From contig BCIM01000002.1 of NCBI GenBank assembly GCA_039545315.1, forward strand, positions 275,369-339,368: a stretch of DNA of 64,000 nucleotides, written 5' to 3'. This DNA is from Kondoa malvinella. Taxonomy: Eukaryota > Basidiomycota > Agaricostilbomycetes > Agaricostilbales > Kondoaceae. The first letter of the stretch is position 1. Each line of letters begins with the position of its first letter. A model generated the notes under the pieces. The model was not told where the DNA came from. It did no database searches and was given only the letters and a program-made list of their open reading frames with translations. The position numbers and the translations under genes were made by a program. Positions 60,993 through 64,000 of the stretch are shown piece after piece.

Positions 60993-61233
60993 GATGGGAG
61001 AGCTTGGTCGTGTGGTTGGTCTGCGTGGAACAGCTAAGAGTGCGAGGTCGTTCAAGGCAGCTCTGTACTGCCTGTTTCTTGCCGGTATAGTGGACGACCC
61101 ACTTTGCCTTGTTGCGGGGACTCTACCTTGTCCACATTTCGTCTGTTTGCCTTCGCCAGAATCTTTACAAGGCCACAATGGCGTAGAGGCGCAACTTGTT
61201 CCCTACTCTCCCATCAATAATTTGCGCATCGAC
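60993..61233. promoter_or_regulatory. Shared bidirectional promoter of the dioxygenase and FAD monooxygenase
   Basis: Only 241 bases separate two divergently read catabolic genes, so one regulatory region probably serves both. No binding site could be named from sequence alone. Confidence 0.5.
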
Positions 61234-63008
61234 ATGTCGAATTCTGGTGCTGAGGCTCCCCTTCGAGTTGCGATAGTCGGCGGAGGTCTAGGGTCTGTCT
61301 GTTCTCCCATGGCCATTCTCCAAAGGCTGAATGCTGTACCAGAGGGCTTTCACTGGCTTTAACAATTGGTCGAGCGCAAGAGACAGGCGCGAATGTTCAA
61401 TGCACAATTTATGAAGCGTAAGAACGCCTTCAGTACAAATCTGACACACAAAGCTGATGCTATTCATCACAGAGCTCCCAAGTTTGCAGAGATCGGAGCA
61501 GGCGTGTCTATAAGCGAAAATGCTGTGAGGCTGCTCGAAGATCTTGGCCTGACAGATCAGTACGCTGCTATTGCCGACTTCAGCGATGCAGCTGTTGGAG
61601 ATGCGAAGAACGTCTACTTTGATTGGAGACGGTACGACACTGGAGAAAGAATTGGCAGAGTGAGTCCTGTCAGATTGACGAAATATACTTCCAGCTGAAT
61701 ACTATTGCAGACTATAGAGAAGCATCATTCATATGTACATCGTGCTCGCTTTCTCGACACTATGCTCGAAGCTGTCCCAAAAAGCATACACCGTCAATTC
61801 AACAAGCGGTTGCTATCTCTGGAAACAAAAGATGGAAGCAGCACATTGTCCTTCGCAGATGGTTCTGCAGCAACTGCAGACTGTGTGATAGGCTGTGAGT
61901 CACCTTCGAGCGAGCGTAAGAGTATTCACTTATGCTGTCTGCAGGCGACGGGATCAAGAGCGCTCTTCGATCTATGCTTCATCCACCGAAAGATGGCTAC
62001 GGTGTCATCAGATACTCTGGCAGCTATTGCTATAGAGGATTGATCGATCGTAAAGCGCTAGAGGAAGCTGGTTACGAAGCACCGGATCTGCCTAGAATGT
62101 GTAAGTCACCGCTATCATCACCGATGCCGAAGACTGACAGACTGATAATCAGATCTCGGACCACAACAGCACATGTGTGTAATCTCCTGGTTGGATCAGA
62201 CCTATGCTGAGCCAATAACAGTCTGGCTTTCCCCGTCGATCATGGTAAGACGGTCAACGTGGTGGCTTTCTCAAGCGATCGCTCGCTTCCACTAAACGAA
62301 AGACAATGGACTGGCCACCCAAACCTCAAGACTACCGAATCACCTGCTCCTTGGGTCATACCGGTCGAACAGCAGCTTATGCTGGACGACTTTGGGAGTT
62401 TTTGCGATCAAGCTCAGATTCTGCTAAAGGTCAGCTCGACAGTAGCTTAGAAGGACTTGATGCTGAGCTCTATGATTAGCATATCGACAAACCGTCCTGT
62501 TGGGCCCTGCACGAGTTGACAGACCTAGAACGATGGACTTTCGGCTCATCCATCGCTCTTATGGGTGATGCTGCCTGCGCTACTACACCACATCAAGGTA
62601 CGCTTCTAGCTTTTTAGCCTACTCCCGAATACTGATAAGCGTCTTCTGCTTGTAGGCGCAGGAGCAGGTCAAGCACTAGAATCAGGCTATACTTTAGGAA
62701 GATTGCTATCGAGACTAGAGTGCACTCGCGAAACTCTAGGTCGTCATCTTCAGTTCTACGAAAAGATCAGAAAAGAGCGTCATGACAAGGTCAAGAATAG
62801 TTCGCGCGAGAATGGTGAAGTCATGGAATTGTGTGGCTATGGCACTGTTGCTGGTTTGGAAGGTAAACCTTTGGCTTGGGATCAAAGCGATCAGGGATGG
62901 AAGGACCTTGGAGCGGAGTGTGAACATAGGACGGATTGGATCTTTCATGAAGATGTCAAGGCGAATGTTGACAAGGTCATCAGAGAGCAAGAGGCTCAAG
63001 GGTTGTGA
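61234..63008 (+). CDS. Salicylate hydroxylase-like FAD monooxygenase
   Basis: Group A flavoprotein monooxygenase; in this setting it would hydroxylate an aromatic acid such as salicylate to catechol. Starts MSNSGAEAPLRVAIVGGGLG (dinucleotide-binding GGGLG), then LSLALTIGRAQETGANVQCT, KFAEIGAGVSISENAVRLLE, HSYVHRARFLDTMLEAVPKS (HRxxLxxxL motif region), LSFADGSAATADCVIGADGI (the DG motif), GYGVIRYSGSYCYRGLIDRK, AFPVDHGKTVNVVAFSSDRS, and the second FAD motif IALMGDAACATTPHQGAGAG QALES. The family motif is usually GDAAHATTPHQG; here the His is Cys (codon 62576-62578). The end is WIFHEDVKANVDKVIREQEA QGL. About seven introns. Length near 430 residues. Confidence 0.9.
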
Positions 63009-63233: not shown

Positions 63234-64000
63234 TCAGAAAGGACCCGTGCCCACCACAGCTTCTACACACCTTTGTGTTTTCCATGGGTGTCTACCGAAC
63301 ACCAACAAGTGCCAACCTGCATATATGATGTTCAAGCCTGCGGCCTTGTCCCGGTTGAAGATTCCGCAGCATGTCGTACATTGGCTGAGACGACCATTCT
63401 CGTGCTCACTGGCGCTGCGCTTCGGGTGGTAGACACTGTGTGGACTTGCTCAGCAATGAACCCTTTATGACAGTACACAACTCACGTCGACCTGATGACA
63501 TCTTCCGTACCCGGACGTTCCATTTCGCACTCTGGCTTCGGACACACCTGCGAAGTCCAGTCCTCATCCACAAGCCGGAAGATGACGGGAAGACCCAAAG
63601 CCTTGCACCGCTTCATCAATGCCCTGATGACAGATGACCTTTGGTCGAAGGTATGCGATTGACCCTTCGTCAAAGAGTCAACGCCATTGCCAATGAACAT
63701 CACAAACGTCGGAGAATCTGGCGCTGTCGTTACACCCATTTCTTCGATCATCGAGTCGACCAAAGAATCGACGAGCGACTTCTGGCGGTTCTTGTGCATG
63801 AAAGACGCTTGGCGGACGTCGTACGATGATCGATGCAAAGTGTCAAAGAAGGTGTGCGCCACTTTGATGCTAGCTTCGCATTGAGGATCCTTGGTTGCTG
63901 CTTTCAGTGCCTCGAGATCTATAGGGAACGCCATCTTCCCGATCTTCCGCTGATGCTCTCTCAAGATGTTCTGGGCCTTCTTTGCAGTATATAGCTGGAA
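63234..64000 (-). CDS. Fanzor (eukaryotic TnpB-like RNA-guided nuclease), 3' part; runs off right edge
   Basis: Two exons are visible: 64000-63486 and 63435-63234, joined by a 50-base GTGAGT-ACAG intron, about 235 residues in all. The first has a helical segment (YDVRQASFMHKNRQKSLVDS) like the helix before RuvC-II, then a strand FVMFIGNG, a Lys-Gly loop, KALGLPVIFRLVDEDWTSQV and CPKPEC. The second exon supplies the other half of the zinc ribbon (SQCTTCCGIF) and NRDKAAGLNI, the RuvC-III motif with its Asp near 63349. The order strand, VDE-x2-TS-x-C, C-x4-C, C-x2-C, NRD-x-A-x2-NI is that of Fanzor/TnpB (OrfB zinc-ribbon) proteins. The Glu in VDEDWTS (codon 63565-63563) is a candidate for the relocated catalytic Glu known in Fanzors. 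RuvC-I and the N-terminus lie outside the window, so activity cannot be judged. Confidence 0.8.

Follow-up and report, generated by a model that had tools for sequence, protein, structure and literature searches.

Our main finding concerns a gene, L001, whose 3' end lies at the right edge of a 64,000-nucleotide stretch of DNA from Kondoa malvinella (the window; G000:C2:275369-339368, in a host assembly of 19.09 Mb in 20 contigs). Judging by its sequence, L001 probably encodes one giant protein with two nucleases (we put the probability at about 0.6): a RuvC domain with zinc ribbon of Fanzor lineage at the C-terminus and a FEN1/XPG-like 5' nuclease at the N-terminus, connected by a charged middle region. 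The original prediction, made from the letters of the window, had proposed a Fanzor-type RNA-guided nuclease gene at this edge. The lineage held, while a length of 1,664 residues, the FEN1/XPG-like N-terminal domain and the membership of a family within the genome had not been foreseen.

Reading the exons from the sequence, we obtained a gene model that spans G000:C2:338602-343790 on the minus strand and joins 5 exons, through 4 GT-AG introns of 46-50 bp each, into one open frame (Table 1). Introns this short, and a host thymidylate synthase whose closest match is PDB 2aaz, from Cryptococcus neoformans, suggest a basidiomycete host. The window covers just the 3' end of this gene, which extends 4.4 kb beyond the right edge, to window-equivalent position 68422. 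The minus strand of 63234-64000 encodes FIGNGVDS, VDEDWTSQVCPKPEC, an intron and then CTTCCGIFNRDKAAGLNI, without stop or frameshift, in agreement with the C-terminus, zinc ribbon, NRD and intron inside the zinc ribbon described earlier. From its visible part, the copy had been thought possibly intact; the gene completed to the right is indeed an unbroken frame that retains the catalytic residues. Its middle region is charged and lysine-rich, joins both nuclease-like parts and shows, by eye, putative nuclear localisation signals.

Searching the genome with the spliced L001 protein, we found one full-length paralogue on contig C12 and more copies on C2 (two), C1 and C3. Three other genes are full length, namely L010 (1689 residues), L014 (1743) and L011+L015 (1757; L011 below), with the same domain order as L001; their models were spliced by eye using L001 as guide and expecting an MG start. 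Clades were defined by percent identity: L001 and L010 form clade A (43%), L014 and L011 form clade B (37%), and identity between clades is 21-22%. Profiles of the two clades matched each other in the N-terminal part (P 1.3e-10), the middle (P 6.3e-9, second half only) and the C-terminal part (P 1.8e-34), with 0 of 100 shuffles in each case: the domain order predates the duplications. In addition, introns 2, 3 and 4 occupy the same alignment columns with the same phases (0, 0 and 2) in all four full-length genes, each gene has intron 1 (phase 1) 4 or 5 residues ahead of its first FEN-like Asp, and L014 and L011 carry one additional intron of phase 0. The Fanzor-like family of this fungus is old and intron-bearing.

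These gene structures also bear on whether two adjacent genes, one XPG-like and one Fanzor, were falsely merged by the gene model. Such an error could come from splicing the paralogues by eye and from weak splice sites, as the donor GTCCGT of L011 intron 3. We nevertheless hold it to be very improbable, since the introns on either side of the middle exon, 654 codons without stop, agree in phase and alignment column among the four paralogues, and since the homology between clades extends into the second half of the middle segment.

The C-terminal ~600 residues of L001 belong to the TnpB/Fanzor family, with D1403, E1572 and D1627 as catalytic residues. A RuvC-I DPG, present "near exclusively", with an alternative Glu is given as a Fanzor fingerprint (PMC10711439), and D-X(125,275)-[TS][TS]-XX-C4-X-RD as the Fanzor motif (PMC3627910). 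Both are found in L001. The RuvC-I Asp expected upstream of the visible part is D1403, just outside the window and 171 residues ahead of the TS pair, in a DPG that L014 shares (L010 has DMG and L011 DAG). The complete motif occurs in all four full-length copies, at 168-195 residues from the Asp of DxG, and none of 2000 shuffled L001 sequences contained its zinc and RD part. The alternative Glu, 6 residues ahead of the zinc ribbon, is seen as E..[TS]SQ.C in the same four copies and in the fragments L012 and L013.

Profile and fold searches also placed the gene in the Fanzor/TnpB lineage. The last 268 residues of L001, once spliced, matched PF07282 with E 4.9e-5 and 23.8 bits (under the curated 26.3). 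This family and NCBIfam guided_TnpB matched the four full-length paralogues at E <= 1 (best 5.2e-6 and 2.9e-4, respectively), with L001 under both curated cut-offs. A profile of the C-terminal part matched a profile of six archaeal TnpBs with P 2.6e-5, compared with P of at least 0.23 for six controls and 0 of 150 shuffles. Among the matches listed in a fold search of the C-terminal part, the Fanzor SpuFz was at Foldseek rank 7 (E 0.2), and 10 of 50 rows of a second listing were TnpB or Cas12 entries, with one further row "Cas005"; a family not among the matches listed may still match. When all six frames of the genome were searched with PF07282, none of these Fanzor-like genes was listed at E <= 0.001, probably because an intron splits the zinc-ribbon domain; all four spliced proteins do match. 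Exon 4 also holds ~330 residues ahead of RuvC-I with a conserved TxNGLP motif, which raises the question of a WED/REC region.

At the other end of the protein, the first ~400 residues resemble FEN1/XPG. The profile of the four paralogues matched a FEN1 profile with P 9.9e-5 (P of at least 0.09 for six controls; 0 of 200 shuffles), the clade B part by itself gave 0 of 150 shuffles, and the FEN1 hidden Markov model matched L014 with E 1.4e-5 in a search space of four sequences. As reference positions we used the seven acidic metal ligands and the arch K/R of human FEN1. All of them have a counterpart in L001: D43, D113, K122 and R129 by eye and by alignment to clade B, and E298, E300, D324, D326 and D385 by profile alignment. 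The order of the motifs is identical across the four paralogues. The family has in common with FEN1/XPG/Rad2 5' nucleases the MG start, the ordered acidic motifs, the K/R pair, an H3TH-like GxD..GGxG block and the profile match; it differs from them in its long insertions between motifs and in its fusion to a Fanzor. XPG_I has five matches in the host genome, all of them elsewhere.

Several results speak against two nucleases in one protein. XPG_N and XPG_I models of Pfam and NCBIfam did not match the N-terminal part, and we therefore call the domain "FEN1/XPG-like" and do not assign it as a family member. The N-terminal part of clade A, to which L001 belongs, was not significant against FEN1 by itself (15 of 150 shuffles). 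AlphaFold models had low confidence both for this part and for the RuvC-only piece (predicted local distance difference test score, 58). The missing family match, the result for clade A and the poor N-terminal model would fit a domain that is not a nuclease, either PIN/XPG-like or an unrelated binding fold, as in Mkt1-type proteins. We consider this unlikely, as the window copy has all seven acidic positions of FEN1 plus Lys and Arg, in a motif order that is the same in the four paralogues.

Assuming a protein with two active nucleases, the most likely mechanism is one in which the C-terminal part, like other Fanzors, would bind RNA, open the DNA that matches it and cut there through its single RuvC site; the FEN1-like part would then trim the displaced or 5'-flapped strand, and the break would be processed by the same molecule that made it. 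If true, a natural fusion of Fanzor and flap-endonuclease-like domains would show that a single eukaryotic protein can unite RNA-guided cutting with the processing of ends, and it would offer a nuclease shaping its own break.

TIGR-Tas proteins include members carrying added nuclease domains. They are likewise a modular RNA-guided DNA-targeting family, but with an unrelated guide-binding domain and found in prokaryotes and their viruses (PMC12045711), whereas the parts of L001 each look catalytic on their own. In the literature covered, Fanzors are described as proteins of 600-800 residues with a single nuclease: most Fanzor1s have 600-700 (PMC11423790), and they reach about 800 (PMC10711439). 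L001 is about twice as long as the longest Fanzor1s reported there. Among the open-licence papers listed, none describes a FEN1/XPG domain in a Fanzor or TnpB. The L001 family resembles Fanzor1 and Fanzor2 in the RuvC DPG, alternative Glu, C4 zinc ribbon, NRD, the motif of PMC3627910 and the presence of SpuFz among the fold matches listed, and is unlike them in its 1664-1757 residues, FEN1/XPG-like domain, charged middle, introns inside the domain and the absence of a database relative from the sequence searches made.

This last point comes from searches of several collections. Among 5.8 billion proteins, full L001, a C-terminal alignment (A3) and full L014 led to 7984, 7997 and 6189 scored candidates and to no relative; the fungal coverage of this collection is uncertain, and we do not claim absence from other fungi. 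No relative was confirmed in viral contigs (alignments A3 and A1) or in prokaryotic genomes (A3 only), and none was found in phages with the C-terminal 253 residues. By sequence, the PDB had no match for exon 4 and only chance-level matches for the RuvC piece, A3 and A1. These findings suggest why such genes evade surveys, as introns halve the zinc ribbon and the sequences lie outside the reach of ordinary similarity search.

We also looked at the 3' flanks of the family. The fragments L012 and L013, partial clade B copies, share 1.5 kb at 94% identity, a stretch that takes in the last intron and ~390 bp of 3' flank; this flank is common to both up to ...TTGTACATAGTGA. The last 73 bp of this flank recur alone on C4 with 93% identity, and the flank of full-length L011 has a diverged version (TGACATGATGTCCTTTTT, GGAC, TTGTACATAGTG) with a local score of 38, against a maximum of 26 in 1000 shuffles. 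In the genome searches made, the element was found at four places only, three clade B loci and the solo one, and not in the flanks of L001, L010 or L014. Allowing up to 3 mismatches, a 26-nt pattern recovered three places, and a pattern from the L011 version recovered L011 alone; therefore, other diverged copies could be missed. The 15-base tail, with 2 mismatches, occurs at 41 places versus 22 for its reversed control and thus means little by itself.

Fanzor guide RNAs measure 75-150 nt (PMC11423790), and Spizellomyces has loci with ends yet without a Fanzor frame (PMC10432273). Given its similar size and its solo copy, the element is a candidate for either a guide-RNA scaffold or the end of an element. 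For its 7 single-sequence RNA folds, between 19 and 149 of 200 shuffles folded equally well, Rfam had no family in L001, L010, L011, L014 or the window, and the reversed TTGTACATAGTG, as a left end, occurs at one place (L013 7503) with 2 mismatches. L013 and the solo copy match over 88 nt at 94%, slightly past the element, so its edge is not perfectly sharp. By eye, the copies of L012, L013 and C4 sit shortly ahead of a start codon, and what looks like a solo 3' end may rather be a promoter piece that these places have in common. Clade B probably is, or recently was, associated with a short 3' end in which the guide-RNA scaffold may lie, and mobility is likely in this clade only. The window copy, for which no such 3' end was found, may be a resident host gene. 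A wider reading, possible though tentative, is that the small family of this fungus carries an RNA-scaffold element of ~70 nt at the 3' side, that the solo copy is a "ghost" of this element, and that one clade lost the element and became resident.

A less probable alternative to the main reading is that L001 is a domesticated host protein, no longer RNA-guided: its Fanzor part would have been captured long ago and fused to the FEN1-like domain, and would today act in DNA repair or on chromatin by guide-free cutting. In favour of this, neither flanking repeats nor the 3' element were found at the window copy (inverted-repeat searches at L001, L010 and L014, with L011 not included, listed pairs that were short and imperfect and did not flank any gene), introns stand at conserved places in deep paralogues, and DPG is lost in two of the four full-length copies with the D-E-D residues retained. 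Against it, the RuvC and zinc-ribbon part is the most conserved (62% identity between L001 and L010, versus 39-43% elsewhere), and clade B retains the 3' element with a solo copy. L001 and L010 differ in the RuvC part by 0.36, 0.21 and 0.58 at codon positions 1, 2 and 3; third positions are the most variable and second the least in all four segments compared, and saturation of synonymous sites gave no ratio of nonsynonymous to synonymous change.

Table 1. Positions of the features of L001, its paralogues and its neighbour (positions in the window or window-equivalent, unless a locus is named).
Feature	Position	Strand	Remarks
Exon 5 of L001	63234..63435	-	Second half of zinc ribbon (C1617, C1620), RuvC-III NRD, C-terminus, TGA stop
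D1627 of RuvC-III NRD	codon 63348-63350	-	Exon 5; from paralogue alignment
Intron 4 of L001	63436..63485	-	50 bp, phase 2, GTGAGT...CACAG, inside zinc ribbon
Exon 4 of L001, in-window part	63486..64000	-	RuvC core after RuvC-I; exon runs to window-equivalent 65092
Alternative Glu E1572	codon 63563-63565	-	Exon 4
First zinc pair, C1579 and C1584	exon 4, in window	-	
Exon 3 of L001	65143-67104	-	Beyond window edge
Exon 2 of L001	67151-68262	-	Beyond window edge
Exon 1 of L001	68311-68422	-	Beyond window edge
L001 protein regions outside window			RuvC-I DPG (D1403), remaining Fanzor part, charged middle (residues 409-1062), FEN1/XPG-like domain (residues 1-~408)
Candidate 3' element	L129 2834-2907 (G000:C4:100833-100906); L012 4262-4334; L013 4057-4129; L011 4168-4216		48-73 nt, conserved, non-coding
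Recent duplicate of 3' half of clade B gene	L012 4262-5760; L013 4056-5550		94% identity; L013 frame broken
Convergent FAD (flavin adenine dinucleotide)-monooxygenase-like gene	about 61200-63008	+	PF01494, E 0.0038, under cut-off

The convergent oxygenase-like gene, whose stop (frame end 63008) is separated from that of L001 by 225 bp, had been proposed as a possible mark of an insertion point. This was not borne out: the repeat search listed no inverted repeats flanking L001, comparison of its 3' flank with those of its paralogues showed no similarity, and no insertion boundary was found around it.

We also noticed that the 71 bp directly before the ATG of L001 (L001 8440-8510, window-equivalent 68440-68510) recur once in the genome, at G000:C3:1275489-1275559 with 90% identity; they may be a left end or a piece of promoter common to both places.
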